A stretch of DNA of 59,928 nt from Anaerolinea sp. (GTDB taxonomy: Bacteria > Chloroflexota > Anaerolineae > Anaerolineales > Anaerolineaceae), in contig DYEC01000006.1 in the NCBI GenBank assembly GCA_020725865.1, positions 1 through 59,928 of the forward strand, written 5' to 3'. This document shows positions 13,509 to 59,928 of the stretch, in pieces. The notes beneath the pieces were generated by a model. The model saw only the letters and a list, made by a program, of their open reading frames with translations, was not told the origin of the DNA and made no database searches. The position numbers and the translations under genes were made by a program. Within the stretch, counting starts at the first letter, position 1. Each line of letters opens with the position of its first letter.

Positions 13509-14155
13509 GAGCGCCATTTTCGACTGCATTGGCGATTGCTTTCGGCCTGGTTGTTTTGCTGGGATATTTTATCCCGGCACCCTGTGATCCGGCGAACCCT
13601 GGTTTATCCTGTACCTTTTTGGGCATTCGGGTTGTACTTCTGGACTGGGGTGCCACCCTGGCAGGGGTTGCAATGCTGGTGGGAATTGTAAACCTGGCGC
13701 TGGTTCACTGGCGCAAAGTACGAGCGTCAGGCAAGGAACGAGACCTGTTGAGCGCCGTGTTTTTGCTGGCTTTTTTGATCACGCTGGCAGCGGGTTTGTG
13801 GTTTACGCCGGCGGATGTGCGTTTTCAGCGGGCGGTGCTCGGTATTCAAACACCGGTGGAAATTAGTCTGATGGCTTTGTTGGTTGTCACGCTGGCTTAT
13901 GCCAGCCTGCGTTTGCTTCAGCGGCGCAGTGGTTTGATGGCTGTGTCCTTTGTCATCAGTGCGCTGGTGTTTCTGCTCTTGATGAGCGGGTTGTCAGGGT
14001 TGTTTCAACAGGTTCCTCTTCTGCGGGAACCAGTTAATGTCATCAACCGCCTGCCACTGGCTGGGGCGCGGGGTATTTTGCTTGGGATTGCTTTGGGCAG
14101 TTTGACTGCCGGTTTACGCATTCTTTTGGGCGCTGACCGTCCATATAGCGGATGA
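13505..14155 (+). CDS. Polytopic membrane protein (unknown)
   Basis: 216 residues with about six membrane helices. A GTG start overlaps the stop of the DUF6754-like gene (GTGA), and its own stop overlaps the next ATG (ATGA). An early loop contains two Cys residues (PCDPANPGLSCTF) that could form a disulfide outside the cell. No family is recognised. Tight coupling suggests a fixed-ratio subunit of the same membrane complex. Confidence 0.75.
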   Translation: MRAPFSTALAIAFGLVVLLGYFIPAPCDPANPGLSCTFLGIRVVLLDWGATLAGVAMLVGIVNLALVHWRKVRASGKERDLLSAVFLLAFLITLAAGLWFTPADVRFQRAVLGIQTPVEISLMALLVVTLAYASLRLLQRRSGLMAVSFVISALVFLLLMSGLSGLFQQVPLLREPVNVINRLPLAGARGILLGIALGSLTAGLRILLGADRPYSG

Positions 14156-16797
14156 GTATGGCTGAGAACCGTTGTCCAATGTGTGGCAAGTCTAATCCGG
14201 AAGAGGCACAACGTTGTGTCTTTTGTCAGGCACAGCTTAAGCCTCTGACAGGTGGTGAGGAACTGCCGCAACCCTCCTTTTCATCTTCCGATGAAACGGA
14301 GTGGCTGAAGAGCTTGCGTCACACCATGGGCGAAGAGCCCTCATCTGCAGGGGAAACAGGTCAGGAGGAGGAACCGGACTGGCTGGCACGTATCCGTCAG
14401 CGCGCTCAAACGGAACGCCAATCTACGGATGAAGATAAAAATCAGCTCTCATCCTGGCTGGGTGATACCGGTAAGGAGACCTCTGGGGCAGGGGAGGAAG
14501 ATTGGTTAAATCAGTTGCGCGCGGTGACGGGTGTTCCTCAGGAATCCCCCGAAGAACCTTCACCGCCTTCTCAGGAAGAGCGGCGAATGACTACCGGTGA
14601 ACTGCGCGATGTAAGGGATCGGCTGAGCCGTATCGCAGGTGAACCGGTTGACTTATCCGCAGGCGTACCGCCCGCACCTCAACCAGCCGAAACAACGCCG
14701 CCTTCTGCTGAAGCGGAGCAACCGCCTCAAGTAACGGCTGGTGAAACATCAGATTTGGCAGAATGGCTGCGTTCTTTGGAATACGCAGGGATGGAAAAGC
14801 CGGCTGAGAAAACGGAGTTCAGTATCCCGCTGGAACAAAGTGCCGAGCAGCCTTATGGTGATCTGGCAGAATTTACTGGAGAGAGTGAGCTGGGTGGTCC
14901 GCCGGAGGGTGAACAGCCGGACTGGTTGAAGGCTTTTGAAGAAGTTCCGCCTGTGGAAGAAGCGCCGTCTGCGCCAGAACCACTGGCTGCGCCGGTAAGC
15001 GGTGAGGAAACGCCGGACTGGTTAAAGGCTTTTGAAGAAGTTCCGCCTGTGGAAGAAGCGCCGTCTGCGCCAGAACCACTGGCTGCGCCGGTAAGCGGTG
15101 AGGAAACGCCGGACTGGTTAAAGGCTTTTGAAGAAGTTCCGCCTGTGGAAGAAGCGCCGGCCGCGCCAGAACCGCCGGCTGCGCCGGTAAGCGGTGAGGA
15201 AACGCCGGACTGGTTACTGGAACTGGCTCAGACGTTTACCTCCGAAACACCGGGCGTACAACCTTCACCTGTTGAGGTTCCAGTTTCACCATTTGTGGAA
15301 GAGGTTTCCCCTCAGGCAGAGCACCCCGAAGGTGTGACAATGCCTGTGGAGGAATTTTTAGAGGAAGCTGTACAGCCCGAACAGACCGCCGAGACCACCC
15401 CGGTGAAAGGTGTGGATTTGACTGATTGGCTGGCTGAACTGGAAGAAGAGGCAGTTGACAAAGAGGCAATCTCCAGAGCATTTATCCTTGAGGAAGAACA
15501 GCCGCCTTCTGAGGAACTTCCCGCCGCCAGTTATCCTTTTGCCGGGATTGATGCGGATTTACTCGGTGCTGAGGAAGCGGAAACACCAAAAGAAACAGGC
15601 ATAGAAGGGCTGGAGGGTTTGGCTCCCGCTTTATTACCCGACTGGTTACAGGCTTTGCGGCCGGTTGAAGCGGTGATTGGCGAAACTCCAACAGGGGTAG
15701 AAGAAGAAACTCAGGTAGAACGTGCCGGCCCACTGGCGGGTTTGCGCGGTGTGCTTCCTGCTGATCGGCTGGTGATTCAATATCGCAAACCACCCGTTTA
15801 TTCGATTAAACTGCGTGTCACCGAAAAACAGCGCCAGCACATTGAAGTATTGGACGATCTGATCAAAGCAGAAGGCAAACCGGCGGCGGTTAAGCGGGAA
15901 GATTTACAGGTGCCGCGGCGATTGTTGCGCTTGACCCTGGCGTTGATCCTGATTCTTGTCGTATTGATTCCTTTGCTGGTTAGTTCTCCCTCAGTTGTTC
16001 CAACAGGACTGGTGCCGGATGAGAATGTGCGCGGGTTTTATTCTCAAATGAATTTACTGGTGCCAGATCGTCCCGTATTGCTGGTAGTGGATTATGATGT
16101 CGGCTATCTGGGGGAGATGCGTTTTGCGGCGACCGGCGTCATCGAAAATCTGATGCTCAAACGGCAGCGATTGGCTATTGTCTCCACCGTTCCCACAGGG
16201 CCGCTGTTGGCAAATGACTTGCTTGAACGGGCGCAACTCAAACTGACGCAAGTGGAACCCGCGATTCGTCAGGGCTACGCCTTGCCGGATCGGACGGTAA
16301 ATCTAGGGTATCTGCCGGGTGGCACTACCTCTTTGCAGGAATTTGCCACGTTTCCCCGTCAGGCAGTCTTTGCCGGGCTGGGCAGTGTTCCGGGCGAACC
16401 ACAAAACGTCTGGGGGCATGTTGTGGTGCAAAATATTAACCGGTTGAGTGATTTTGCTGGTTTGCTTTTAATTACTGACCGGGTGGATACGGCGCGCGCC
16501 TGGATTGAACAGGTAGAACCGGCGCTCGAGGGACGCCCTCTGCTGGTGGTTACCAGCGCACAGGTTGCTCCAATGCTGACACCCTATGTGGACTCTGGGC
16601 AGATTGAGGGAATGATCTGGGGGATTACTGGCGGCATGGCGTATGAACGGCTTGCCGGTGTTCCACCTCATGCGGCGGCTTACTGGAATGCTTATCGGTA
16701 CGGCATGTATGTGGGGTTTGCTTTCATCCTTTCCGGTGTCTTGCTGCGCAGTATTACGGATGTCTTTTCGCGCCGCAGGACGAAACATGAGGCATAA
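14152..16797 (+). CDS. Zinc-ribbon protein with DWL motif array, tandem repeats and C-terminal membrane domain
   Basis: 881 residues. It starts with a zinc ribbon (CPMCGKSNPEEAQRCVFC) and continues with about 480 acidic, Pro/Glu-rich, probably disordered residues. These hold about ten copies of a short [DE]WL motif (EWLKSLR, DWLARIR, DWLNQLR, EWLRSLE, DWLKAFE three times, DWLLELA, DWLAELE, DWLQALR). Three of these lie in exact 96-base tandem repeats. The C-terminal third has a membrane helix (about 588-607), an extracytoplasmic domain and a last helix near 855-872. The layout suggests a cytoplasmic multivalent scaffold tied to a membrane complex. Confidence 0.85.
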   Translation: MSMAENRCPMCGKSNPEEAQRCVFCQAQLKPLTGGEELPQPSFSSSDETEWLKSLRHTMGEEPSSAGETGQEEEPDWLARIRQRAQTERQSTDEDKNQLSSWLGDTGKETSGAGEEDWLNQLRAVTGVPQESPEEPSPPSQEERRMTTGELRDVRDRLSRIAGEPVDLSAGVPPAPQPAETTPPSAEAEQPPQVTAGETSDLAEWLRSLEYAGMEKPAEKTEFSIPLEQSAEQPYGDLAEFTGESELGGPPEGEQPDWLKAFEEVPPVEEAPSAPEPLAAPVSGEETPDWLKAFEEVPPVEEAPSAPEPLAAPVSGEETPDWLKAFEEVPPVEEAPAAPEPPAAPVSGEETPDWLLELAQTFTSETPGVQPSPVEVPVSPFVEEVSPQAEHPEGVTMPVEEFLEEAVQPEQTAETTPVKGVDLTDWLAELEEEAVDKEAISRAFILEEEQPPSEELPAASYPFAGIDADLLGAEEAETPKETGIEGLEGLAPALLPDWLQALRPVEAVIGETPTGVEEETQVERAGPLAGLRGVLPADRLVIQYRKPPVYSIKLRVTEKQRQHIEVLDDLIKAEGKPAAVKREDLQVPRRLLRLTLALILILVVLIPLLVSSPSVVPTGLVPDENVRGFYSQMNLLVPDRPVLLVVDYDVGYLGEMRFAATGVIENLMLKRQRLAIVSTVPTGPLLANDLLERAQLKLTQVEPAIRQGYALPDRTVNLGYLPGGTTSLQEFATFPRQAVFAGLGSVPGEPQNVWGHVVVQNINRLSDFAGLLLITDRVDTARAWIEQVEPALEGRPLLVVTSAQVAPMLTPYVDSGQIEGMIWGITGGMAYERLAGVPPHAAAYWNAYRYGMYVGFAFILSGVLLRSITDVFSRRRTKHEA
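14919..15214 (+). repeat. Coding tandem repeat, 96-bp period, three copies
   Basis: Each unit encodes 32 residues starting at the DWLKAFEEVPPVEEAP segment. The first two units are nearly identical at DNA level and the third differs by a few bases. The short span and near identity indicate recent slippage or recombination expansion. Confidence 0.9.
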
Positions 16798-41438: not shown

Positions 41439-41599
41439 TGATCAATATGATCATTGATCATATTTGATCAGAAGAAGAGGAAGAAGAATCTTCTTCCTTC
41501 TGATCAATGATCAATTGATCAGAATGATCATGATCATATGATCATGAGGAAGAGGAGGAAGAATCCTCCTCCTTTATGATCAATTGATCATATTGATCA
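41439..41599. repeat. Block of 13 TGATCA palindromes with two purine/pyrimidine hairpins
   Basis: TGATCA occurs 13 times in 161 bases, in clusters of 4, 6 and 3. Between clusters lie two hairpins: GGAAGAAGA-A-TCTTCTTCC (9-bp stem) at about 41479-41497, and GAGGAGGA-AGAA-TCCTCCTC (8-bp stem) at 41552-41571. The whole segment is nearly self-complementary at several scales and could extrude cruciforms. No coding potential. Confidence 0.9.
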
Positions 41600-41647
41600 T
41601 GCAGTACTAAAATGCAAAACTTTGCAAACTTTTTGTGCGTTTTATGC

Positions 41648-41711: not shown

Positions 41712-42059
41712 TTACATTTCACCCCAGTAATCACTATCTTCGTCAATCCCCATCCATTCGGTATCGTAAGCGTCGCTGTCATCTTCATCCATAAAATCCT
41801 CAAAATCTAAATCTTCGAGGCAGTATAAAAAATTTTGGGGTGAGTACTGGGCTGGGGGTTCGGAATAGCGTTGTTTTAAGAGCCTCGTTTGGTTGTCCAG
41901 CTCGGCTTCGTACTCAGCCCAGTATTGATCCAGCAGAGAGGTTTTCTTGTGTTCTTCTTTCTGCGGCGAGGGATTGATGGGATCAAACCGTCTTCGACAG
42001 TGCCAGCAAAACATTGCATCATCGTGATTATCTCTGGCGCAGGATGGACATTTTTTCAT
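41712..42059 (-). CDS. Small zinc-ribbon protein with acidic tail
   Basis: 115 residues. N-terminal zinc ribbon with two CxxC pairs (CPSCARDNHDDAMFCWHC), a basic segment, a helix (LLDQYWAEYEAELDNQ) and a strongly acidic C-terminus (DFMDEDDSDAYDTEW). AGGGAG precedes the ATG. It follows the small membrane-protein gene by about 110 bases and precedes a terminator. The family is not recognised. Its position suggests it belongs to the CRISPR-linked unit. Confidence 0.7.
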   Translation of the reverse strand: MKKCPSCARDNHDDAMFCWHCRRRFDPINPSPQKEEHKKTSLLDQYWAEYEAELDNQTRLLKQRYSEPPAQYSPQNFLYCLEDLDFEDFMDEDDSDAYDTEWMGIDEDSDYWGEM

Positions 42060-42172: not shown

Positions 42173-42457
42173 TTAGGACAGGTTGTTAATGATTTGAAGA
42201 ATAAACAAAATTACAAACCAAACGACAAAGCCCACTGGGATAGAGGCAATCAGCCATTTAAAACTCAAATTGATCATGGAGCCTATGGACATATTTATAT
42301 CAGTGATTCTAGTGCGAACCTGAGGGGAGGTTGCATTATCTGCCTGCAAGCTATTCTTAATTAAGGCTTGAATATTTTCCAATACCTCATTTTGTTTTTG
42401 TAATAACTCCAGAATATCTTGCACTGAGGCCGATTGAATCTCAAATTGGTTTGCCAT
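42173..42457 (-). CDS. Small coiled-coil membrane protein under a cas10-like promoter
   Basis: 94 residues: a helical, probably coiled-coil N-terminus (VQDILELLQKQNEVLENIQALI), a polar linker and a C-terminal membrane helix (WLIASIPVGFVVWFVILFIL). No CARF or known effector domain. Its promoter shares a 27-bp element with the cas10 promoter. A membrane effector or accessory role in type III immunity is inferred from that and from proximity, not from homology. Confidence 0.7.
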   Translation of the reverse strand: MANQFEIQSASVQDILELLQKQNEVLENIQALIKNSLQADNATSPQVRTRITDINMSIGSMINLSFKWLIASIPVGFVVWFVILFILQIINNLS

Positions 42458-42544
42458 AAGGGTTTTTCCTTTCGTTATATGAGGTTTTGATATTCATAAT
42501 AGAAATATAAAGATCGCTTTTCGCCCGGTTACTCAGACGGAGGA

Positions 42545-42594
42545 AATATACACAAATCCCCCTTTCATGTCATGCGGGTTTTCCCCTATTTATG
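42545..42594 (-). promoter_or_regulatory. Promoter and shared activator-like element before the small membrane gene
   Basis: Minus strand: -35 ATGACA (42568-42573), 17-base spacer, -10 TATATT (42545-42550). The 27-bp element at 42568-42594 contains AAATAGGGGAAAA and CCGCATGACA, covers the -35, and extends upstream. It matches the cas10 promoter element at 25 of 27 positions. Confidence 0.75.
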
Positions 42595-42625: not shown

Positions 42626-43480
42626 TCAATCCCCGCTCTCAACAGCGCGGGGCGGCAGAGGGCGGCATTGTCCCATCCCGGCTGAGGTTTGTACGCCGAC
42701 GCCGCTGAAGAGCGAGAAAGCCGCCAGGGCGTGTATCTGCCCCAGCCAGTAACGGTCAAAATTGAGCGTGGTGAAGACAACTTCACCAATGAACCCCACG
42801 CGCAGCCCGCCTTCTTTGTAGGGCACAGCGCGGCTTTCGATGCGGAAGCGCTGTACCGCCAGACATTCCTTCGCATAGCGGCGCAGTTCCTGCGGGAAAG
42901 CCAGCGGCGAGAAAGCATTCCAGCGCTGTAACAGGCTGCCAAAGACCAGTTCGGGCAGGGGCAGCGGCTGGGTGCGTTCTTCGGAGTGGAAGGCGGTCGG
43001 ACTGGTGAATTGCAGGGCGATGTGCCGCGAGGGCGGTTCGCTGGTGAGCAGGTGACGGGCGGAGAGTTCCTGAAAACTGCTGGCGGCTGCCCATTCCTGT
43101 TCTTCGGGCTGAGCAGTGACGGCTTGAACGATAAAAGGCAGGTAGTCCAGCTCAATCGTTGTTCCCGGTGCAAGCGCGCCGCCCGGCTGAATGGCTTCCA
43201 TCAAACGGGTGCAGACTGGCATGGTGAGGGCGGTGATGCGCAGGCGGTAATCTCCCTGCAAATCCAGACTGCGTTGCGGAAAGCGCCCCATCAGGGTCGA
43301 GGCAGTCAAGGGGCGTGGACCCTGCTCATCGTGCAGGGCGGCTGCCAGTTCGGGGTCGCTTTTTGCCAGCGCGCTCAACACCATTGCCTGTGCCGCCCGT
43401 CCCCACCAGGCGGGAAGCGGGCGCTGGGGGTCTGCAGGCGCGCAAGGGCGCAGAGTAAAGACAAGTGAAAGCAGGTCCAT
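42626..43480 (-). CDS. cas6: CRISPR repeat endoribonuclease Cas6
   Basis: 284 residues with the Cas6 double-ferredoxin pattern and C-terminal Gly-rich segment (LFSGVGVQTSAGMGQCR). Cas6 cuts pre-crRNA within the repeat. A His near 30-70 typical of the family is not certain. The ATG overlaps the csx15 stop by one base. It is the last gene of the type III operon, and no array is adjacent, so crRNAs must come from elsewhere in the genome. Confidence 0.88.
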   Translation of the reverse strand: MDLLSLVFTLRPCAPADPQRPLPAWWGRAAQAMVLSALAKSDPELAAALHDEQGPRPLTASTLMGRFPQRSLDLQGDYRLRITALTMPVCTRLMEAIQPGGALAPGTTIELDYLPFIVQAVTAQPEEQEWAAASSFQELSARHLLTSEPPSRHIALQFTSPTAFHSEERTQPLPLPELVFGSLLQRWNAFSPLAFPQELRRYAKECLAVQRFRIESRAVPYKEGGLRVGFIGEVVFTTLNFDRYWLGQIHALAAFSLFSGVGVQTSAGMGQCRPLPPRAVESGD

Positions 43481-43863
43481 TAATACCTCCGCTTGCGGGC
43501 TGTTTCGCGCACGGCGTGCAGATTGAGGATTTCTGCCACTTCATAGACTGGCGGGACGACGCCGGGGCGCGGGCACAGGCGGAGGATGGGCGGGAAGTAG
43601 CCCATGCGTCCGTGCAGTTCCGCGAGTAATAGCGCAGCAATGTAATTAAGCGAAGGCAGGTTGACCAGAATCTGCCCGGTTTGCAGTTCTGTTGCGCTGA
43701 GCGGCAGGGTTTGCATCAGCGCTTCAAGCTGTGGCAGGTAGGACTGTTCATTTTCAAACTGCACGGGCAGATCAAAGACTCGCTCAACGGTTTGCCCGCT
43801 GAGCTGTTCGATTTGCGTGATTTGTTCTCTGGTGAGTGGGTGAGAGAAGTTGAGGATGAGCAT
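43480..43863 (-). CDS. csx15: CRISPR-associated protein Csx15
   Basis: 127 residues, matching Csx15-like small Rossmann-like proteins: MLILNFSHPLTREQITQIEQ, LVNLPSLNYIAALLLAELHGRMGYFP. Csx15-type proteins have been reported or proposed as cyclic-oligoadenylate ring nucleases, which would switch off signalling. The frame extends to 43932, but that overlaps the upstream gene; ATG 43863 fits. It lies between the Can2-like nuclease and cas6. Confidence 0.8.
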   Translation of the reverse strand: MLILNFSHPLTREQITQIEQLSGQTVERVFDLPVQFENEQSYLPQLEALMQTLPLSATELQTGQILVNLPSLNYIAALLLAELHGRMGYFPPILRLCPRPGVVPPVYEVAEILNLHAVRETARKRRY

Positions 43864-43870
43864 AGGGTTA

Positions 43871-44782
43871 TCACCGGTATTCGGGATTGAGATGTGGGGA
43901 ATGCTCCGGCTCGCGCTCGCCCAGCACGGCATCCAGCGCCTGAGCCAGCTGAGTTTTTGAGTCGGCTGTCAGCCGAAAGCGTCCGGCATGTTGTTCGAGG
44001 CGGACGACGACTATCTTGATCTGGTAAGCGGCAGCCAGTTCCCATAGCTGTTGACCGGGCTTTCTTGAGGTGACCCAGATGCGTCCGGTGTAGGTGCCGA
44101 GATACTCGCGTCCGGTAATGGTCGTGAGCTGGTCAATGGCTTCTCGCTTCCGCCTAGCCTTGCTTAAACCGCTTTTGGCTTCAATAACGGCTGTCTGATT
44201 GCCGCGCTGGATGAAAAAGTCAATCTCAAACGCGGGATACTTCAGATTGTGTAAACATTGATCACAATGCTCAGCTAAAAAGTGATAGACCGCAACCTCT
44301 TGCGGGTTGACCAGCGGGTTGGATGGCAGCGCATCCAGCCCGTGCGCTTGCAAGTAATCTTCCAGCGTGATCAGGCGGGGCAACTGCTCGGATTGTTGAA
44401 AGAGCCTGCCGTCCTGAAAACGGAAGCGGTAGAGGGTGGACTTTTTCCCCTCGCTTTGCAGATAGACAAAATCTGCCCGCTGGCGAAGCGCAATCTCATA
44501 GCCAGCCCATGCCATGGGCTTGGTGCCGCCGGTGAGGTTGAAGACGGTATCGGGAGTGGATTCCTGCTGGAAACGCCGGGCAATGTCTGCCAGTTGATAG
44601 GCGTTGGGAATAGGGCGCAGCTCGGAATGGGGAAGCAGAGCGTGCAACTGCCGGGCAACGGCTTCGGTTTTATCGGTACAAACCAGCAGATGCCGCTCCG
44701 GCTTCAGCGCCCGATGCACCAGCAGAATGGGAATGGGTTGTTCACCAACAAGGGAGAGAAGGAGCATGGGGAGTTTCCTCAA
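43871..44782 (-). CDS. Can2/Card1-like CARF nuclease (DUF1887)
   Basis: 303 residues. N-terminal CARF domain (1-140) with the motif NLTGGTKPMAWAG at 82-94, and a C-terminal PD-(D/E)xK nuclease domain: Asp188 in FEIDFF, Glu201 and Lys203 in VIEAKSG. This arrangement is that of cOA-activated DNA/RNA nucleases of the Card1/Can2 group. It starts 4 bases inside the end of the csx2 gene. Active-site residues look intact. Confidence 0.87.
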   Translation of the reverse strand: MRKLPMLLLSLVGEQPIPILLVHRALKPERHLLVCTDKTEAVARQLHALLPHSELRPIPNAYQLADIARRFQQESTPDTVFNLTGGTKPMAWAGYEIALRQRADFVYLQSEGKKSTLYRFRFQDGRLFQQSEQLPRLITLEDYLQAHGLDALPSNPLVNPQEVAVYHFLAEHCDQCLHNLKYPAFEIDFFIQRGNQTAVIEAKSGLSKARRKREAIDQLTTITGREYLGTYTGRIWVTSRKPGQQLWELAAAYQIKIVVVRLEQHAGRFRLTADSKTQLAQALDAVLGEREPEHSPHLNPEYR

Positions 44783-45969
44783 GTTATTTTCCAGAGGGCT
44801 GCTAGAGCTTGTAGTTGCTTCTGAATTTCATTAATGTTCTTTCTAATAGTTTTCAGCTTCATTGAGTCTTTTTGGTGTTCAGCATGATCAAAACTATTGC
44901 GAACGCTAGAAAGCGTATCCCAGAATTTGCACAGGTCTCCTTTTTCTGGCCAACCCTGCAATTTTCGAGCAACCTCATTAGGATTAACTTGTTCTTCCGA
45001 TTGATCCGCTCTGCCCAGTCGTGCTAATCCTGATATGCCCCGTTCCATTATCTCCCGATCCGTCGTCTCGAGACTCCATGGATACCCGAGCTTCCAAGTG
45101 ATGACATCAATCAGCCATTCCCGTGCTAATGTAACCGCTTGAACGATTTGGCTCTTCTCCAAATACCATAAAATCATTTGATACTCTTTTTTGACGGCCT
45201 CTTCCAGGTTACTCGGCTTGGCAGCAAATTGTGAGTAAGTGGATACGACGCGTTCTTGCAGGATGCTAAAAGGGATCGTCCTTTGTTCAGATTGCTTCCC
45301 CCCAATATTAACATCCATGTTGAGTGTTTCTGCGCTTTCCATTAGCTTGAACGGTTGACACCATAACGCTGCTTGTGAAACCTCGATGAGTTTCTCTGCG
45401 GCTTTTGAAAGCTCTCTATTACGCCCACTGTTGATGAGATTGGCCAATCGCTGGGCATTCCCTGTTTGAATAAACTGATCGGTTGCAACCAGCCAGTCAA
45501 GCATGGCCACGAAATCCGTCAGTTCGAGCACAGGTGCGATATCACTATCTTTTAGTTCTAATGCCCCGTAGTAAATTGCCTTGATTTTTGCCTGACGAGC
45601 AAATTGCAGGTATGCGGCAAACAGGAAAACAAGAAAAGGCAGGGATCGCAGCCCATGAGTTATATCGAAAATGACCTCATCATCTTCTTTTACATAAGGC
45701 AAAATTCGCTCGAAGATTTGCCACATTTCTTCTGGATTACGACCCTCCGGGATAGGAATTTCCAGGATGCGTTCATCCTGCAGTTCTTCTACGACATGCC
45801 AGCACTCATTATGTGCTTGCTCCGTTGCACAGACCAGCATTTGGTCGAAATGGATTAATTGATGCAGGGCTTTGGCAAATACTTCTCCCTCCCCAATTTT
45901 ATCCTGGAGTTTATATTGGGTTAGTTTCGGCCGGACACCCAGAAATGTGATCACAACGGTTCTATCCAT
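44779..45969 (-). CDS. csx2: Csx2-family CARF-HEPN ribonuclease
   Basis: 396 residues, TIGR02221-like. N-terminal CARF domain with FDITHGLRSLPFLVF and a C-terminal HEPN domain with R357-N-S-F-D-H362 (RxxxxH), the RNase site. On cOA binding such proteins cut RNA and cause dormancy. It overlaps the Can2-like gene by 4 bases. AT content is visibly higher than in the neighbouring cas6/csx15/can2 genes. Confidence 0.88.
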   Translation of the reverse strand: MDRTVVITFLGVRPKLTQYKLQDKIGEGEVFAKALHQLIHFDQMLVCATEQAHNECWHVVEELQDERILEIPIPEGRNPEEMWQIFERILPYVKEDDEVIFDITHGLRSLPFLVFLFAAYLQFARQAKIKAIYYGALELKDSDIAPVLELTDFVAMLDWLVATDQFIQTGNAQRLANLINSGRNRELSKAAEKLIEVSQAALWCQPFKLMESAETLNMDVNIGGKQSEQRTIPFSILQERVVSTYSQFAAKPSNLEEAVKKEYQMILWYLEKSQIVQAVTLAREWLIDVITWKLGYPWSLETTDREIMERGISGLARLGRADQSEEQVNPNEVARKLQGWPEKGDLCKFWDTLSSVRNSFDHAEHQKDSMKLKTIRKNINEIQKQLQALAALWKIT

Positions 45970-45993: not shown

Positions 45994-47631
45994 TTATTTT
46001 TCCACTTGACATTTGACTAACCAAAAATTCTTTTGATGGGGGTCTTGTTCTATTGAAATAACCTCACAAATTAACGACTGAGTTTCTCGATACTTTTTTC
46101 CGAAAGCATGTTCAGGGCTAATTACACCCAGGGCTTGATCATCAGGTGATAAGCCGGGTAGTTCAAGGTAAACTGAGCCATTATCCTCAACATACATGAC
46201 CGTAGCCTGAAATCGGTCGCCCGGCTGTGGTAATTTCGTGAATTTCCGAATAATTGGTTTAGCTTCGGGCACAATGGGTGGTTTTGGTTGGGGCGGTGTT
46301 GCATTGTGGGCGGGCGCTACGGACTTCGCTTGTGGCCTCGACACGCTCGCCGGTTGGGCTGGAGGTGAGACCGGAGTGGGTTTCTGATTCGCTATTTCCT
46401 GCTGGGCCTGTGCTAGCCAGTCCTGGGTGTTTTCTGGTGGTACAAGGCGCATCGCAACCCAACCAAGTGGCAATAAAGAACCATCCGCCACAGCTACTTT
46501 GCGTGATTTCGGCGAGTCAAGAGGACCAAGCCATCTGGCGCCTGGGTTTCTCCCAGGTTTTCCTAAGCCTGCGGTGTTTTTGAAAGATTTGACAACAAAC
46601 TCAAACGTTTCCTGAGCTAGCAAATCTGTAATCGTTTTTGCGTCATATCCACTACCCCAACCAAGCGGCAGGATAAAAATATCACCATTTGTTGCCATCT
46701 TTTCAAGTTGCTTGTCAAACCATGCCGCTAGCTCAGCTTGCTTGTGTCTTTGGTAAAAATCCCGCTCTTGAGAAAGCAAATGCACCGAGGTGCGGCGGCA
46801 GTATTCTGGCAGAAAAATAAACAGGTCTCGGATTTTCTGAAAGCCAAGCATGCTGGCTGGCTGAGTTAAAAGCTGTGTTTGCCAGACAATCTCATGATGC
46901 CACTGAGTATTTGGCTTGATAGTTTCTACATACAGGATCATCTCCCGTTCGTTGAAGGGCTTTTTCTTAAACCCTAGCGTGCCATCTTTCTGGATTGAAA
47001 GAATCTTGACTTGTATCACGGCAAGTGTGTTTGGAACTAGTGAGATGCTATCTCGAATAACAAGCAAGCGGTTAATGTCATAGTTGGGGCGTTTGGAGAC
47101 TTTTGGAGCGGCCGGCACAAATACGGCAGCTTCAATCTCATTGCTGTTGGTGGTTTTTTTCCTGCCTCCTACGCCCTCATTAATCAATTTCTCTGTTTGC
47201 TTTAGTAAGGCGTCGTTGTCTATCATCCTGCCGCGCAATAATGCACTGCGTAGTGTCCCTTTAATAGAGGTGCCGGGTAAATATGGCTGTTCGCCTGCGG
47301 TTTTGATAAAAGACAAAATTTCCTTGGGTTTGAAGGTGCAAGGCAAAGTGTAAGCGGAAATTTGGGTTGGGTCGCTTTTGAAATTTGCATTGAGGAATGA
47401 ACCGATCCCTTTACCGGTTGCCGCCAGGTCGCTAACCAGCAAAGAAATCAGCTTTTCCACATTGTTTTGCTGAATAAGCCAGGAGGTTAATTTATTTTCA
47501 GCGATCACATAGAGCTGTCCGGCTTGTACTAGAAAATCCGCCTGGCTGGTCAGCTTCATTCCACTGCCAATGTGAAGCGGACTGAGCGCAGTAACCTCGA
47601 GTTTATAAGGCTCTAAAAATGTCTGGCTCAC
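45994..47631 (-). CDS. csm5: Csm5 RAMP protein with C-terminal OB/S1-like domain
   Basis: 545 residues, well above the usual 350-400. Residues 1-405 are Csm5: VTALSPLHIGSGM, LPGTSIKGTLRSALL and the Gly-rich TAGLGKPGRNPGARW. A Pro-rich linker (413-462) then leads to an OB-fold/S1-like domain (463-545) with PGDRFQATVMYVEDNGSVYLEL and LGVISPEH. Csm5 caps the type III-A complex at the crRNA 3' end. The added domain may bind crRNA or recruit a nuclease; this is inference. Confidence 0.87.
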   Translation of the reverse strand: MSQTFLEPYKLEVTALSPLHIGSGMKLTSQADFLVQAGQLYVIAENKLTSWLIQQNNVEKLISLLVSDLAATGKGIGSFLNANFKSDPTQISAYTLPCTFKPKEILSFIKTAGEQPYLPGTSIKGTLRSALLRGRMIDNDALLKQTEKLINEGVGGRKKTTNSNEIEAAVFVPAAPKVSKRPNYDINRLLVIRDSISLVPNTLAVIQVKILSIQKDGTLGFKKKPFNEREMILYVETIKPNTQWHHEIVWQTQLLTQPASMLGFQKIRDLFIFLPEYCRRTSVHLLSQERDFYQRHKQAELAAWFDKQLEKMATNGDIFILPLGWGSGYDAKTITDLLAQETFEFVVKSFKNTAGLGKPGRNPGARWLGPLDSPKSRKVAVADGSLLPLGWVAMRLVPPENTQDWLAQAQQEIANQKPTPVSPPAQPASVSRPQAKSVAPAHNATPPQPKPPIVPEAKPIIRKFTKLPQPGDRFQATVMYVEDNGSVYLELPGLSPDDQALGVISPEHAFGKKYRETQSLICEVISIEQDPHQKNFWLVKCQVEK

Positions 47632-47633
47632 GG

Positions 47634-48719
47634 TTAACCTCCTCCCAAATAAATCATCAACGCTGCCCCGCTTTGATAGACCGGTTCTTGATCCAACGGC
47701 GTCAGGCGCTTCAATTGTCCATAGATATCCTTATGTGTGGTGAATGGAAAGACCGACCCCGGAACAAAAACGGGCATCTCTTGCTTATAGATTGGCGAAC
47801 TCCTCATACCTTCAGGAAGCGGACGGGGGAATTTATGACTGCGTTTGGGGCGCAGGATCTTGAGGGTATACATGAATGGGCTACCTGACAGGTTCAACTC
47901 ACCTTCTGCAGGCAGGTAGTGCGAAACGGTCATCATCGCTTGCGGTTTTTCAGAAATAGGCGGCGAAAACGCCTCGCTCACCTGAATCTCAAAATGTCCT
48001 TTGCCAGTAGAAGTGTCTGCACCAAAGCCGGTATCGCCAAGCAGACGCAAGGCAGGGTGGATATATTGACGGAAAACCTCCTCCGAAGTACGCAACAGTG
48101 CCCATAAACCACAATTCGGTGCAAAGTGGGTCTCGTCTGAATAAAACAGTAGCCCTTCAGCCGTAGCACCGCGCACGCGGTCTATCTGGTTGTGCTGTAC
48201 CGCTTCGGTCTGATATAATCTGGGCGGCAAAAGCACCGCTTCTTCCGGTTTGCACAGTAAAGTTTTATTGCTCTGACCGGCAGCCAGCATCTTGCAGGCA
48301 TCCAGGGCAGACAATTGGCCTTGAATGATTTCGATTAAGACCGCCTCGCTTACATAAGCCAGTTTCTTAAAATGTTTTATTTGTATTGTTGCCTCAACTA
48401 CCGCCAGCTTTCGAGTTTTAGAACGCTGTTGCTCTTCTGCCGCCAAAGCCTCTAAGTCTTGAAAGGCAAGTTGAAATGACAACGGGCGCGGGTAAAAGCG
48501 GATGGGGCTGCAGTCTGGCGAGTAAAAAGCAGGAAAGGCATGGCTAAAAGCAAACGGTGGACTAGCACGGTTATCCTCTAACCATTGTTCGAGCTGCGCG
48601 TCGTTCATCAGTCCCAGTATACGGATACCCCAGCAGACTGCGCCAAAAAGCGTATCGGAAGCGAGCGGCCAGCTTGCCAGGGGACCGCGGGGTTTGAAAT
48701 ACACTGCAAAGGTGTTCAT
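47634..48719 (-). CDS. csm4: Csm4 RAMP protein
   Basis: 361 residues. N-terminal FKPRGPLASWPLASDTLFGAV and Gly-rich loop GDTGFGADTSTGKGHFEI are typical of Csm4, which binds the crRNA 5' tag and Cas10. It overlaps none of its neighbours, with 2 bases to csm5 and 11 bases to csm3. Confidence 0.9.
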   Translation of the reverse strand: MNTFAVYFKPRGPLASWPLASDTLFGAVCWGIRILGLMNDAQLEQWLEDNRASPPFAFSHAFPAFYSPDCSPIRFYPRPLSFQLAFQDLEALAAEEQQRSKTRKLAVVEATIQIKHFKKLAYVSEAVLIEIIQGQLSALDACKMLAAGQSNKTLLCKPEEAVLLPPRLYQTEAVQHNQIDRVRGATAEGLLFYSDETHFAPNCGLWALLRTSEEVFRQYIHPALRLLGDTGFGADTSTGKGHFEIQVSEAFSPPISEKPQAMMTVSHYLPAEGELNLSGSPFMYTLKILRPKRSHKFPRPLPEGMRSSPIYKQEMPVFVPGSVFPFTTHKDIYGQLKRLTPLDQEPVYQSGAALMIYLGGG

Positions 48720-48730
48720 AGGAATTGCTC

Positions 48731-49537
48731 CTATGTCTGCGGCCAGCTAATTTTGTCAAATTGTCCCAGAATCTCTTGCACTTTGCTGCCGGGTAGTTCA
48801 ACCTTACTGCCGGCTTGTCCTTTCGCATAGTCTTCTGCGGAACGCCAGGTTAGTTCTAGGTCTTCAAAAGCAATCTGACCGCTACCGCGCGAACCGCCGC
48901 CGCCCAGTGAGCTGTGTTCCAGCAAGGACATGGAGGTAAAGAGTAACCGGAAGAGTTTGTGGTCGTCCTGCTCATAGCAATCCACTATCAGGCTGATATT
49001 AAAATCTGCCCCCGCCGGGACACGTTCTATCGGCCGCGGGTTGGCTTCAGAAGTTACGCGGTCAATAGCATTTTCGGTTTTCACTTCGGTGAAAGAACCT
49101 TTACCCAAGTTATCCTCCAGGCTTTGCTTTGCTGATGGTGTTAGATATGCGTCGCGCACAGTCAGACGAGTTGGCCCAGCAGTTTCTCTTACTTCAGAGT
49201 CGTCTGTGGCTGGACCGAAGAGACGGGCTAGTTGTAGAACTCGTTCGCGTTTCTGTTGATCCCCGGATGAGTTTTTTAGGTCTTCGCATGCATAAGCCTG
49301 ATAGCCGTTGTGTTTCGGGTGTTTTTTAATCAGACCAAGATACCATTCTGCCAGCGAACGCAATTTGCCTTTGAGCGAAGAGCCGGGAATAACGGGTTCG
49401 TCAGTAAGCGGGTCTTTGATGACCGGATTGTCTATCCCGCCAATTTCCAGACCGGCCGCAGAGCCGCCGATATGCAAGCCGGTTACACAGACAATGCGCC
49501 CATTCAGTTGATATTTTCCAAGGAGTTTAGTTGCCAT
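48731..49537 (-). CDS. csm3: Csm3 RAMP protein, target-RNA nuclease subunit
   Basis: 268 residues. Csm3 forms the filament backbone and cuts target RNA at 6-nt steps. The catalytic Asp is Asp36 in EIGGIDNPVIKD; GSSLKGKLRSLAEW and the Gly-rich SSLGGGGSRGSGQIAF are intact. It therefore should keep target cleavage activity, which is what ends signalling. Confidence 0.92.
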   Translation of the reverse strand: MATKLLGKYQLNGRIVCVTGLHIGGSAAGLEIGGIDNPVIKDPLTDEPVIPGSSLKGKLRSLAEWYLGLIKKHPKHNGYQAYACEDLKNSSGDQQKRERVLQLARLFGPATDDSEVRETAGPTRLTVRDAYLTPSAKQSLEDNLGKGSFTEVKTENAIDRVTSEANPRPIERVPAGADFNISLIVDCYEQDDHKLFRLLFTSMSLLEHSSLGGGGSRGSGQIAFEDLELTWRSAEDYAKGQAGSKVELPGSKVQEILGQFDKISWPQT

Positions 49538-49566: not shown

Positions 49567-49980
49567 TTATGCTTGTCTATCGTGATACTTGTGATATGCC
49601 ATGATGGCTTCCAGAAAATTTGCAACGCTTTCAAAATCTTGTGATGTTTTACATTTGGTTAGCATTGTAGTAAGCAGCTCATAGAATGCTTCCGTGATAA
49701 GATTTCGTCCTACGGCGTATGCCAAAGTTGGCATAATCAAGGCAACTTTGGCGCGGTTGAAGTTCCCTTGATCCTTAAATTCCCGTTTTAACGACTTGAC
49801 ATAATGGAAAATTTTGCGAAGCTGGGTGGCTTTAAGTTTGCTTTTTTGATCTATAACAACGCTTTCTGCCCAACCACCCCTTCCAGCATAATCTTCCGGA
49901 TTCAAGCTAGCCATCGTGGGTAATTTTTCAATTTTGGACTTCACTTCTTGTGTTTTCATCCTGTTTTCTTGTGTGTTCAT
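49567..49980 (-). CDS. csm2: Csm2 small subunit
   Basis: 137 residues, all-helical, Lys-rich: KLKATQLRKIFHYVKSLKREF and an end FLEAIMAYHKYHD fit Csm2. It contacts target RNA along the filament. It is 6 bases downstream of cas10. Confidence 0.88.
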   Translation of the reverse strand: MNTQENRMKTQEVKSKIEKLPTMASLNPEDYAGRGGWAESVVIDQKSKLKATQLRKIFHYVKSLKREFKDQGNFNRAKVALIMPTLAYAVGRNLITEAFYELLTTMLTKCKTSQDFESVANFLEAIMAYHKYHDRQA

Positions 49981-49986
49981 CCTGTT

Positions 49987-52440
49987 TTACTCCTTTCTGG
50001 TGTATAAGCTGGCAATCGAAACCGGCACCAGCACTTTCTGACTAATGATTGTCTGAACCATTGTATTTTCATATTTTTTGCGCAGGTCAGGTTTCATTCT
50101 TCTCGCCAGTGTGTAATACAGGCGCGGCGTCCACATGGGAGTAAGCTTTTTTCCTTTTTTGTCTATGTGCTGGCGGAAAATGGCACCTAGATCATAAATC
50201 AGCCCGCTGGATAACTGCTTGTTTTCAATATCTTGTGCCCATTCCATTGCTTGAGCGAGTGCCCATTCAAAACTGATCTGAGTGCTTTTATTGGAAAGGT
50301 CGTTATCTGTCCACGCCAGAGCCGTTTCAAAAGCAGCAATCCGGTTGCGTTCCTCCTTTGCCAGTTTTTCTTGTTCATCCACAAGGCTGGCGAATTTCTG
50401 TGTTGGATAGCGAGGCTTGACCTGTACGTAACCGGCAGAGAGGGTGAGGTTGCGGTTGTGTCCACAAAACTCTGAAAACTGTTTGCAGATTTCCAATGCC
50501 AGATTGAGTACCTGATCCCAGGGTCCGACAACAAACAGATCATCACCTCCGGAATATAAAATGTAAAACAAATTATCTACCTTTGGTTTCTTATTGGCAT
50601 TCTCCTCTTGTTGCATCCACTGGTCATAAACTTCACGGCAAATACGATTGAGATGCCCGGCAAAGAACAGATCGAGCATGCGGCTGAGCGCAGCAAAACG
50701 TGAAAAGGTTGGTCGCCAGAGCGATTGAGGACTCTTTCCGGGGTCATCTTCCACCAGTCCTTCACTCATGACCAAGCCAAGTAAATCCACATCTGCTTTG
50801 AGTATCCCAATACGTTTTGCGCCTTTACTGAGTTTAGCCATAGCTTCAAAATGCAGCACATCCCCTTCTTCAATGGGTTGTTCGTCATCTTCATGATGCT
50901 TTTTCAGCGCTTTGGGCGCTGTATTGGCAAGGAAACGAAACGCAGTAGGCAGAGGCGGCATAATAAAATCCACAGTTTGGTTGATAGCGAACAATTTGAC
51001 ATTGTCTTTGTAGCGTTTCAATATTCCTAGGTCCCTTTCATCCCGCACCAGCGCCACCCGAACACCGAATTGGCTGAAATTAATCATCTGCTTTTGGTCA
51101 AACTCTGGGACGTCACAGTAGCAGTATGCTAAATAACGTGTGTGCGGTAGATGCTTGCCAATGTTGGCATGAAGCTCACAAAGCACACAGATTTGCCCCG
51201 AATCTTCCATCGGGGTTAGCTGGCAGACTGAGCAAACATGCCACAGGTTTTGCCCACCCCGGGAAACATGCTGATTACCGGAAGGAAGTCCAAGCAAATT
51301 ATTAAGTCGGTGCAGCCATTTTTGACGTTTGAGCGTTTCCAGCTTCTCGTCCAAGCGTCTGAAAATTGCACGCGTGTCCTCAAAGTCTTGTGGCACGGCC
51401 GGCTCTGCTGCAATGAGCAAGGCGATTTCAGCTTGAAATTCTTCCAGTAACCAATCTGAAAGCTGAGTTTTGAGCTTTTCTAATTCATCTTGGGCTTTTA
51501 AAGGAAGCAGCAAGTCAAATTTTCCGCCTCCAACAAAGATTGCACAGCTTTCCGGCAAGCCAACTGTCCGAAGGATCCAATCAACAACGACCTCGATCAG
51601 CAATTGCAGGTAGAACGACCGCCCGCGCAGGCGTTTGGCAATGTGTTCTGTCTCGGCTTGGGGACGGTTTAGACGGTAAATAAAATCCTGAATGCCGGAT
51701 ACATCTCCACGCACCAACAGGGCAACATGTTCGTTGCCGTTCTCATCAGGAAGAGAGTTATCGAAAGCTATGCAAGCAGCGATGGCAGAAGTCACGCGGT
51801 TATGATCATATAAAGAAACATCCGGCCAGTTGCGCTTTGGCTTTTCCTGCTCGTCTTTTTGCCAGGGTGTTGCTGACGGGACGCACCAGAGATACTTTTG
51901 GAAAATTGCTTGCAGGGTGAAGAAATACTTTTCCGCAGACAGCTTATGCCATTCTTCCCCCATATTTTCCTGCCATTTTTCCAGCTCCTTCTTCATTTGT
52001 TCCCATAATGCTCTGTAATCACCCTCTTTGCCCTCAACAGGGTAAGTATCTTTGTTCACAATCGATAAGGGCGCAAGACAATGCCTTACACCTTTGCGGG
52101 GTTTGGTCTTAAGCTGGACATTTGCCAGGATAGAAAGCAGGCGTGCTTCTTTGGGGTCCTCTGTTTCCTCTGCTCCCGTCCGACGTTCTTTAGCTGCCAG
52201 GTGATCGGCGATTTGGATTCGACGGCTGGCATCATCTTGAGGGGCATGATGCGCCAGCACACCGAAAAGCCCCTTTTGTAGATGTTTCGGCACGAATTGT
52301 TTGACAAACTCGTCACTCAGTATGGCATGAGCTTTGTATTCGCTATCTTTTGAACTAGAGGATTCTCCTGCCCTCTGTGCCAGCTTGCCGATATCGTGCA
52401 GAAGACCTGCCAGTGCAGCCTGGATAACTTCGTCTCTCAT
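49987..52440 (-). CDS. cas10: Cas10/Csm1, cyclic oligoadenylate synthase
   Basis: 817 residues. N-terminal HD nuclease domain with His15-Asp16 (LLHDIGKLAQ), a zinc-binding Cys cluster (CSVCQLTPM ... CVLC) in the middle, and a palm domain with GGDD at 631-634 (LYSGGDDLFVVG). Both the DNase and cOA synthase sites look intact. The ATG follows AAAGGAGG by 4 bases. Overlap with the HD motif and effector genes supports an active signalling system. Confidence 0.96.
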   Translation of the reverse strand: MRDEVIQAALAGLLHDIGKLAQRAGESSSSKDSEYKAHAILSDEFVKQFVPKHLQKGLFGVLAHHAPQDDASRRIQIADHLAAKERRTGAEETEDPKEARLLSILANVQLKTKPRKGVRHCLAPLSIVNKDTYPVEGKEGDYRALWEQMKKELEKWQENMGEEWHKLSAEKYFFTLQAIFQKYLWCVPSATPWQKDEQEKPKRNWPDVSLYDHNRVTSAIAACIAFDNSLPDENGNEHVALLVRGDVSGIQDFIYRLNRPQAETEHIAKRLRGRSFYLQLLIEVVVDWILRTVGLPESCAIFVGGGKFDLLLPLKAQDELEKLKTQLSDWLLEEFQAEIALLIAAEPAVPQDFEDTRAIFRRLDEKLETLKRQKWLHRLNNLLGLPSGNQHVSRGGQNLWHVCSVCQLTPMEDSGQICVLCELHANIGKHLPHTRYLAYCYCDVPEFDQKQMINFSQFGVRVALVRDERDLGILKRYKDNVKLFAINQTVDFIMPPLPTAFRFLANTAPKALKKHHEDDEQPIEEGDVLHFEAMAKLSKGAKRIGILKADVDLLGLVMSEGLVEDDPGKSPQSLWRPTFSRFAALSRMLDLFFAGHLNRICREVYDQWMQQEENANKKPKVDNLFYILYSGGDDLFVVGPWDQVLNLALEICKQFSEFCGHNRNLTLSAGYVQVKPRYPTQKFASLVDEQEKLAKEERNRIAAFETALAWTDNDLSNKSTQISFEWALAQAMEWAQDIENKQLSSGLIYDLGAIFRQHIDKKGKKLTPMWTPRLYYTLARRMKPDLRKKYENTMVQTIISQKVLVPVSIASLYTRKE

Positions 52441-52530
52441 TCAGCCTCCTTTCGATTTTTCCACTGAACGGTGATCCGCCAGCCGGGGTTGCTCCATGAA
52501 TTCCCCCAGCCCGGCTGAGCAGACAGGTTG
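52441..52530 (-). other. cas10 leader with hairpin
   Basis: From the predicted start near 52524 to the ATG the leader is about 84 bases. It holds an 8-bp perfect stem CAGCCGGG / CCCGGCTG (52480-52487 with 52510-52517). An 18-codon frame (52441-52497) ends one base from the cas10 start. Confidence 0.5.
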
Positions 52531-52580
52531 AGTGTAGTTTGTTTTTCTTGCTTTGTCATGCGGATTTTCCCCTATTTTTG
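52531..52580 (-). promoter_or_regulatory. cas10 promoter with shared activator-like element
   Basis: Minus strand: -35 ATGACA (52554-52559), 17-base spacer, -10 TACACT (52531-52536). The 27-bp element at 52554-52580 (AAATAGGGGAAAA...CCGCATGACA) overlaps the -35 and matches the one at 42568-42594. Its upstream end lies in the last codons of the CARF-LuxR gene. Confidence 0.75.
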
Positions 52581-53456
52581 CGGCGTTTCTGCGCCGCTCA
52601 TGGTGTAATAAATACCCAGCAGGGCAACCAGTTGGGCGCGGTTGACATCTTCCAGCTCCCAGTGCGCCGCCGCTTTGCTGTATGCCGAACGCAGTTGCTG
52701 TTCCACCGTGCGCGGTGAGAGATGCAGCCGCGCGGCAATTTCCTGATCGCTCAACCCTTCTGAAACCAGCAGTGCCACCGCCCGCTGTTCGGCTGGCGTC
52801 AGCACTTTCTGCACAAAAGCGCGGCATTGCGCCAGCCTCCGTTCCAGATTGAGGTGCTGAAAATGCGCCAGCGCCCGATCGGCATCCTCAAAACGGCTCA
52901 ACTCCGCCAGCGCCGGCGAAATGTAACTGCGCAGCAGCACCGGCACCTCGCGCAGGCTCACCTGATCCTCCGGCAGCGGATGCAGGCGCCGGCTGGTCAG
53001 AAAATCCCCTGCCGAGTACAAATGCCACAGCTTATCGCGCTCATCGAAAAGCAACTGCGCCGCTACCATGCCGTAGATCGCCATCGTCTTGCGTCCGCCG
53101 GCAATGCACAGATGCACCTGCTCGCCGGCTTGTTTGGCTTTGTGAATCAGGCGGTAAAACATCTGAAACGCCGCCGCGCTTTCCTCTGGCGTTTCTACAT
53201 CTGCCAGCGGGCGGTCGTTTAAGTAAAGCTGTTCAAAGGTGAACTGAACCGGTTTGGGGTAAATGTGGCTTTCCGCATCTGCCCGCAATGCATCCAGCGA
53301 ACGGGCAATCGCACTGCCGGGCAGCGGCGCAGTGTGTACAACGCAAACATGATGAAGGTCAACTCCCTGATGGAATAGCAAATCTATCGTTGCGGTGATT
53401 ACCTGCGGCTCGCTCCCCAAACCCGCAATCAAACAAGCAGATACGTTGTGCCCCAT
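52572..53456 (-). CDS. CARF (Cas_NE0113/Csm6-like) protein fused to a LuxR-type HTH
   Basis: 294 residues. Residues 1-175 resemble the Cas_NE0113/TIGR02584 CARF group, with the ligand motif CIAGGRKTMAIYG at 117-129. Residues 215-283 are a GerE/LuxR HTH: LTPAEQRAVALLVSEGLSDQ, IAARLHLSPRTVEQQL. No HEPN or nuclease motif is seen. It is likely a cOA-responsive transcription factor, and possibly a ring nuclease. It directly precedes cas10 and has its own promoter. Family assignment moderate, HTH assignment strong. Confidence 0.85.
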   Translation of the reverse strand: MGHNVSACLIAGLGSEPQVITATIDLLFHQGVDLHHVCVVHTAPLPGSAIARSLDALRADAESHIYPKPVQFTFEQLYLNDRPLADVETPEESAAAFQMFYRLIHKAKQAGEQVHLCIAGGRKTMAIYGMVAAQLLFDERDKLWHLYSAGDFLTSRRLHPLPEDQVSLREVPVLLRSYISPALAELSRFEDADRALAHFQHLNLERRLAQCRAFVQKVLTPAEQRAVALLVSEGLSDQEIAARLHLSPRTVEQQLRSAYSKAAAHWELEDVNRAQLVALLGIYYTMSGAETPQK

Positions 53457-59719: not shown

Positions 59720-59928
59720 GGCGGATTTGCGTCAGTCCCTGTCAAGGGAAACCGCCGACCTGCTTTTACAGGTAACAACCGCCTTCCTGTCGGGGCGGGC
59801 GGATTTGCGTCAGTCCCTGTCAAGGGAAACCGCCGACCTGCTTTTACAGGTAACAACCGCCTTCCTGTCGGGGCGGGCGGATTTGCGTCAGTCCCTGTCA
59901 AGGGAAACCGCCGACCTGCTTTTACAGG
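59720..59928. repeat. 78-bp tandem repeat array, at least 2.6 copies, runs off the window
   Basis: GCGGATTTGCGTCAG starts at 59721, 59799 and 59877 (period 78). The copies are identical in the window. Each unit contains TCCCT-GTCA-AGGGA, CCTG-CTTTTA-CAGG and CCGCC...GGGCGG inverted repeats. No spacers, so it is not a CRISPR array. The frame across it is an artefact of the 26-codon period. Confidence 0.92.

Follow-up and report, generated by a model that had tools for sequence, protein, structure and literature searches.

The CRISPR locus and two matching predicted promoters

The window, meaning the whole stretch of 59,928 nucleotides that was analysed, carries a CRISPR operon on its minus strand. 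Csm1_B, TIGR01870 and TIGR02582 were matched above cut-off, which identifies it as a type III-A (Csm) system. The features of interest are as follows, in the direction of transcription, with the evidence in brackets.

52572-53456, minus strand: P0002, CARF (Cas_NE0113) domain plus LuxR/NarL-type HTH, proposed regulator (profile and structure matches)
52554-52580, minus strand: 27-bp element before cas10, with -35 box ATGACA at 52554-52559; overlaps the P0002 stop codon
52531-52536, minus strand: -10 box TACACT of the cas10 promoter, 17 bp after ATGACA
52479-52518, minus strand: predicted hairpin in the cas10 leader (folding; one G-run in the window's copy)
49987-52440, minus strand: cas10, with HD, Csm1_B and palm domains and a GGDD motif (domain profiles)
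49567-49980, minus strand: csm2 (profile match)
48731-49537, minus strand: csm3 (profile match)
47634-48719, minus strand: csm4 (gene order; weak RAMP and Csm4_C matches)
45994-47631, minus strand: csm5 (gene order; RAMP family match)
44779-45969, minus strand: Csx1/TM1812-type CARF-HEPN protein (profile, PADLOC)
43871-44782, minus strand: Card1-like CARF PD-(D/E)xK protein (profile, PADLOC)
43480-43932, minus strand: Csx15 (profile, PADLOC)
42626-43480, minus strand: cas6 (profile)
42568-42594, minus strand: 27-bp element before the 94-aa gene, putative operator dyad plus -35 box ATGACA at 42568-42573
42545-42550, minus strand: -10 box TATATT of the 94-aa gene promoter, 17 bp after ATGACA
42173-42457, minus strand: P0001, 94-aa protein with an N-terminal helix and one predicted C-terminal transmembrane (TM) segment (residues 69-87)
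41712-42059, minus strand: 115-aa protein with an N-terminal zinc-ribbon-like motif (sub-threshold DZR match), possibly co-transcribed with P0001

The P0002 gene directly precedes cas10 and its stop codon lies inside the upstream element. In some relatives, an ORF of 659-787 aa stands between cas10 and csm2 (L065:5830-7899, L066:4922-7285, L071:12154-14133); we take its start to resemble Schlafen/AlbA-type proteins. Elsewhere in the window, three direct repeats with 96-nt spacing and 94-97% identity lie at 14911-15216, inside an 881-aa ORF (14152-16797), and exact 78-bp tandem repeats occupy 59720-59928 at the contig end, possibly as an effect of assembly.

The TM segment of P0001 was predicted from hydropathy, and a single-sequence structure model of the protein was of low confidence (mean pLDDT 74). 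In Pfam and in the 2023 release of PADLOC, which may lack newer families, P0001 had no match below E=0.03; its best NCBIfam match had E=0.098. One weak homologue was found among 150 other genomes, a 119-aa protein in G052 with 33% identity over 75 residues, which supports P0001 being a real gene. Between P0001 and the zinc-ribbon gene no terminator-like site was detected, so that co-transcription of the two genes is possible. The first such sites were found inside and after the zinc-ribbon gene (3 sites versus 1.3 by shuffling). Further downstream, at 41495-41601, where long ORFs are absent, TGATCA-type palindromes form a cluster in two 38-nt copies.

The sequence-only reading of this DNA had started from the likeness of the two elements, and its description was borne out. 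The elements at 42568-42594 and 52554-52580 are identical at 25 of 27 positions. Read on the minus strand, both end in TAGGGGAAAAYCCGCATGACA, the ATGACA being followed by exactly 17 bases and then by TATATT or TACACT. The corresponding start codons, on the same strand, are located 111 nt (94-aa gene, ATG at 42457) and 114 nt (cas10, ATG at 52440) downstream of their element, within the claimed range of about 111-114. Both promoters were also found by a sigma-70 consensus scan, with 10 of 12 consensus bases for the 94-aa gene and 9 of 12 for cas10. Around the promoter of the 94-aa gene, the scan returned 3 promoter-like sites versus 2.1 expected from shuffling.

We then asked how often the element occurs. 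Allowing up to 3 mismatches to a degenerate 27-mer, 2 matches were obtained in the window, versus none in 100 shuffles, and the same two were the only ones across the 3.12-Mb genome (26 contigs, 99% complete), where the reversed-pattern control gave 0. With a 19-nt core and up to 2 mismatches, one extra place appeared in this genome; the reversed control also gave 1. A weight matrix built from 16 cas10 promoters, including that of the window and excluding the site of the 94-aa gene, scored the two sites at 67 and 42 bits; the next-best place in the window reached 8 bits and the best of 20 shuffles 6 bits. A general promoter motif, which should recur at many unrelated genes, was therefore rejected: the genome-wide search gave two copies in 3.12 Mb.

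The sequences flanking the two elements are identical at 9-15 of 30 positions. Since the flanks are this dissimilar, a long segmental duplication was also rejected. The starts of the two leaders, at 42520-42545 (GTCTGAGTAACCGGGC) and 52506-52531 (GTCTGCTCAGCCGGGC), are similar and share GTCTG...CCGGGC; possibly, promoter and leader start were duplicated together long ago.

Recurrence of the element beside CARF-HTH genes and before small membrane-protein ORFs

In many Anaerolineae, the element lies directly after a CARF-HTH gene and ahead of cas10; relatives of P0002 precede cas10 in 22 fetched loci. A 25-bp pattern, written after inspection of the loci (the model and the small-ORF test described below are likewise post hoc), was searched in 151 genomes and matched 19 places, spread over 15 of them, the reversed control giving 0. 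Fourteen of these places are where a CARF-HTH gene borders on cas10. All but one of the 15 matched genomes carry a CARF-HTH gene.

We also built a sequence-only model, R1, from 16 aligned cas10 promoters, the site of the 94-aa gene being left out. Applied to the 151 genomes, model R1, whose E-values are rough, returned the 16 training sites, the site of the 94-aa gene (E=4.2e-8) and a site in G003 (E=3.8e-7). These were followed by three matches between 1.6e-4 and 4.4e-4; matches from 0.002 upwards were taken as noise. The proposal of the sequence-only reading that the 94-aa gene probably belongs to the cas10-csm regulon is thus supported at the level of sequence: both genes have the same promoter-operator arrangement, and a model trained without the site of the 94-aa gene finds it.

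Some matches were set aside. One in G014 (contig C94; 2 mismatches, E=4e-4) overlaps the start codon of pyrG in a genome without CARF-HTH and was taken as chance. Weak matches with E of at least 0.01 (G000:C16, G020:C12, two in G065:C1, G030:C2) either fall within or across longer ORFs or come without a small TM ORF; they were considered noise. When the search was extended to 396 genomes of the class, model R1 added cas10 promoters beside CARF-HTH genes in G506 and G367, neither of them training records. Matches in G418 (E 6.5e-5) and G208 (E 2.9e-4) were set aside as well; their 3-kb loci showed no CARF-HTH gene.

A third set consisted of 79 named CARF-HTH loci (1.08 Mb), gathered by an alignment-based scan. 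Here model R1 gave 31 hits at E<=1, every one of them directly behind the CARF-HTH gene; judged by contig identity, 12 belong to training records and the remaining 19 come from other records. The other 48 loci had no hit at this threshold. Similarly, 9 of 27 genomes with CARF-HTH had no model match at E<=0.02. This set of 27 was made up of G367, G506 and 25 genomes drawn from 29 whose CARF-HTH match had E<=1e-20; the four others, G022, G036, G058 and G095, have distant CARF-HTH matches only and were left out. In only some of the genomes and loci without a model match could a diverged element be made out by eye; in G025, G119 and G140 its spacing is almost unchanged, and none was visible in G124. 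The missing matches thus suggest that the element diverges with the regulator.

The element was found to be an imperfect dyad, TASGGG-AAAA-YCCGCA, which overlaps the -35 box ATGACA and has its centre near -42.5. The axis is placed at -42.5 because the hexamers are taken as -35 and -10 boxes. Of 30 evaluable sites, 27 have a spacer of 17 bp between ATGACR and the best -10 box; ties were broken towards 17, and L150 was left out as its sequence ends before the -10 box. The dyad was tested on 29 distinct elements, namely 28 of the 31 locus elements plus those of the window and of G093, L139 and L162 being omitted as repeats of others and L173 as too diverged. Out of five axes, the one through the A/T tetrad was best, with 123 of 232 cells complementary as compared to 37/203, 60/203, 81/232 and 85/232 for the four others. 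The half-sites of the dyad covary weakly: three pairs have two complementary types and two pairs are invariant, the sole pair exceeding shuffles (G-C or T-A) doing so at p=0.02. As in LuxR/NarL class II activator sites, the inverted repeat lies near -42.5, counted from a deduced start site, and abuts the -35 box. LuxR-type class II activators sit near -42.5, and a fixed axis with a 17-bp spacer corresponds to their layout.

Across the 27 CARF-HTH genomes, four non-CRISPR sites were matched at E<1e-3: the site of the 94-aa gene and those in G003:C8 (Bellilinea caldifistulae GOMI-1), G150:C4 and G053:C17. In three of the four cases, a small membrane-protein ORF follows the site by 66-111 nt, encoding 94 aa with one TM segment in the window, 109 aa with two in G003 and, in G150, about 55 aa with two TM segments and TTG as start codon. 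The three ORFs are mutually unrelated. The same test, which was written after the cases had been seen, was passed by 37 of 7608 random intergenic positions of the fetched loci (0.5%). Two of the second sites are weak, with E of 1.6e-4 and 1.8e-4. The one in G053 (L060:2294-2321, E=1.6e-4) precedes hsp20 genes, the first about 416 nt away, and no small TM ORF was found after it. For the 109-aa protein, 150 other genomes yielded a single weak match, and Pfam and PADLOC yielded no family below E=0.03; for the 55-aa ORF there was no Pfam match below 0.09.

The cas10 leaders of the relatives were also inspected. They often contain a hairpin of unrelated stem sequence whose loop carries two runs of at least 4 G, typically AGGGGGA (examples at L132:10910-10982, L136:9632-9691 and L155:8409-8458). 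At least two such runs are present in 20 of 27 leaders (28 of 31 loci were taken and one was too short), versus a mean of 4.6 and a maximum of 10 in shuffles. Folding was applied to 18 of the 20 loci with two G-runs (25 examined); the best stem encloses at least two G-runs in 17 of the 18, in windows that were centred on the run pair and so favour enclosure. In 12 of the 18, no more than 1 of 40 shuffles equalled the best stem. A MAFFT alignment of the hairpins was too poor for covariation counts. Against Rfam, the window had no family at gathering score, and for five leader-bearing loci the matches were all sub-threshold and taken as chance. The hairpin is absent from the second-site leaders of the window's genome (G000) and of G003. 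The cas10 transcript possibly begins with a structured 5' leader.

P0002, a CARF-HTH protein encoded next to the element

The N-terminal domain of P0002 matches the CARF profile PF09623 at 107.6 bits (cut-off 23) and belongs to the NE0113/ring-nuclease type; the C-terminal HTH matches GerE at 26.5 bits (cut-off 23.5). By sequence, the closest solved relative is the HTH of ComA (E=7e-4). In PADLOC, P0002 falls under CARF3. The protein scored 13.2 bits with the Csa3 family profile TIGR01884, below the cut-off of 60.2, and 64.3 bits with Csx14 (TIGR03642), below 90.35, indicating a relative and not a full member of the latter family. In alignments of P0002 relatives, L063 was left out of A2, its coordinates spanning a stop, and 2 of 53 loci were left out of A3 for stops.

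An AlphaFold2 model computed from 52 sequences had a mean pLDDT of 93. In this model, the CARF domain matches the cA4 ring nuclease Sso2081 with a Z score of 19, and the cA4-bound CARF domain of Cad1 with a Z score of 18. The value of 19 reflects a shared fold, and the fold alone is no proof of cA4 cleavage as carried out by Crn1. Because its CARF domain resembles ring nucleases, P0002 might also destroy its ligand and so act as a timer.

A second CARF-HTH gene is present in the window's own genome (L057:8490-9463, contig C1), its product being 38% identical to P0002. It precedes apparent type III-B genes and is followed by a diverged element (ATTGCA, 17 bp, TACACT).

Proposed regulation and its significance

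The sequence-only reading had named neither a regulator nor a dyad; the present analysis adds P0002 as the likely regulator, a dyad near -42.5 and elements before small membrane-protein ORFs in other genomes. We consider it probable that P0002 is a cyclic-oligoadenylate-sensing activator of CARF-LuxR type, with the element as its operator, and that it drives both cas10-csm and the remote membrane-protein gene. Most likely, P0002 would bind TASGGG-AAAA-YCCGCA as a dimer, near -42.5 and over the -35 box ATGACA. Cas10 would make cyclic oligoadenylate on viral RNA, the CARF domain of P0002 would bind this messenger, and the ligand-bound protein would activate transcription, most likely in the class II manner. 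One target would be the cas10-csm-effector operon, a positive feedback since Cas10 makes the signal. The other would be the separate gene for the 94-aa single-pass membrane protein, perhaps together with the zinc-ribbon gene after it. Such an arrangement suggests that one CRISPR alarm sensor turns on immune genes and a membrane-protein gene upon virus attack, the membrane protein presumably having a defensive role. What the sequences themselves show is the element with its geometry, its confinement to two places in this genome, its conservation beside the CARF-HTH gene and its return ahead of other small membrane-protein ORFs; binding by P0002, the nature of the ligand, activation as opposed to repression and the part played by the membrane protein are deduced from these.

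The main rival is that P0002 is a repressor which occupies the dyad over the -35 box and is released by cyclic oligoadenylate, derepressing cas10-csm and the membrane-protein gene. The dyad does abut and overlap the -35 hexamer, and even by themselves the two hexamers match the consensus fairly well (9-10 of 12 bases); as ATGACA is already a fair -35 box, repression is possible. However, the axis fixed near -42.5 and the 17-bp spacer in 27 of 30 sites reproduce the LuxR-type class II layout described above. In addition, ComA, of the same HTH family, activates from inverted repeats with a 4-nt spacer (PMC4797271), and we regard repression as unlikely.

The activator reading presumes that P0002 is the protein that reads the element, and P0002 might merely adjoin an element read by a different regulator. 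We infer its binding, and the genome encodes other such HTH proteins (a weak HTH-only match in G000). Against this stand the 14 of 15 pattern-bearing genomes that have CARF-HTH, the 14 of 19 matches that touch the CARF-HTH gene, and the position of all 31 hits in the 79 CARF-HTH loci just after that gene; moreover, the own-genome paralogue has its diverged element at the same spacing. A different reader therefore appears very improbable. The promoter of the 94-aa gene could also be a duplicated cas10 promoter in front of a gene without a role in defence, and here P0001 being a near-orphan, with its one weak homologue among 150 other genomes, and the alike first transcribed bases of the two leaders (GTCTG...CCGGGC) are in favour. 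Yet element and -10 box were kept while the spacer and most of the flanks differ, and second sites ahead of unrelated small TM ORFs occur in two further genomes, so that we give this explanation little credit.

Activation by P0002 of two separate targets can be compared with known systems, within the portions of the cited papers that were available. The NE0113 CARF group was predicted in 2014 to regulate transcription (PMC4012209). P0002 belongs to this Cas_NE0113/Csx14 group by domain, and the available text of that account holds neither operator nor target. Csx14 has been grouped with the Crn1 ring nucleases (PMC12409355), and a 2022 review counts Csa3 as the only non-nuclease CARF effector characterised to its date (PMC9704534). 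Archaeal Csa3 likewise joins a CARF to a DNA-binding domain, and its presumed site CAPPa is a CRISPR-promoter palindrome largely absent elsewhere; in contrast to the LuxR/NarL-type HTH of P0002, Csa3 has a winged HTH (PMC8699464). CAPPa, found in Sulfolobales, reads TCCC-N8-GGGA and lies at acquisition genes and CRISPR leaders; it is the closest known operator, and in vitro Csa3a bound it non-specifically only (PMC8699464). Both elements of the window read GGG-N4-YCC and, unlike CAPPa, the dyad has the form GGG-N4-CCC and belongs to a bacterial sigma-70 promoter, that of cas10.

Other CARF-type proteins reported to affect transcription are MM_0565 of Methanosarcina, which acts at an archaeal casposon cas1 gene, and RtcR, a sigma-54 activator of RNA repair; unlike P0002, neither is placed at type III operons of this kind in the text available (PMC7465815, PMC7790460). 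ComA of Bacillus subtilis shares the HTH family and a two-hexamer inverted repeat with a 4-nt spacer, but it is a response regulator and its hexamer is TTGCGG (PMC4797271). In the CalpL/T/S sigma response, a type III second messenger also leads to transcription, although CalpL works by proteolysis (PMC11229360). Cam1, Csx23 and CorA are type III effectors acting at the membrane that bind the messenger themselves, (PMC11229360). In the membrane proteins described here no sensor domain is seen, and it is at transcription that they would be gated. The same 2024 survey of type III effectors put transcription factors off for later (PMC11229360). Our literature search, consisting mostly of titles and abstract starts with subscription journals thinly covered, yielded no paper recognised as describing the operator.

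Tentatively, and with somewhat less than even confidence, we propose that type III CRISPR immunity in Anaerolineae includes a membrane arm that is gated by transcription. On sensing cyclic oligoadenylate, a CARF-LuxR protein would amplify cas10-csm and turn on small orphan membrane proteins whose genes lie outside the operon. The slot would be filled by unrelated proteins in different genomes, with 94 aa in the window, 109 aa in Bellilinea caldifistulae and about 55 aa in a third genome, acting as effectors or protectors. If this is true, such proteins could hardly be linked to CRISPR by CARF-, neighbourhood- or homology-based searches. The known accounts consulted give, in their available parts, no bacterial operator for NE0113-group CARF proteins (PMC4012209). 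For a bacterial CARF-LuxR regulator, the sequence here reveals a probable binding site, promoter geometry and targets, so that direct tests become easy. The operator would also offer a route to CRISPR-linked effectors, one that does not depend on gene neighbourhood and that points at orphan membrane proteins in which no sensor domain is seen, possibly far from the CRISPR locus.
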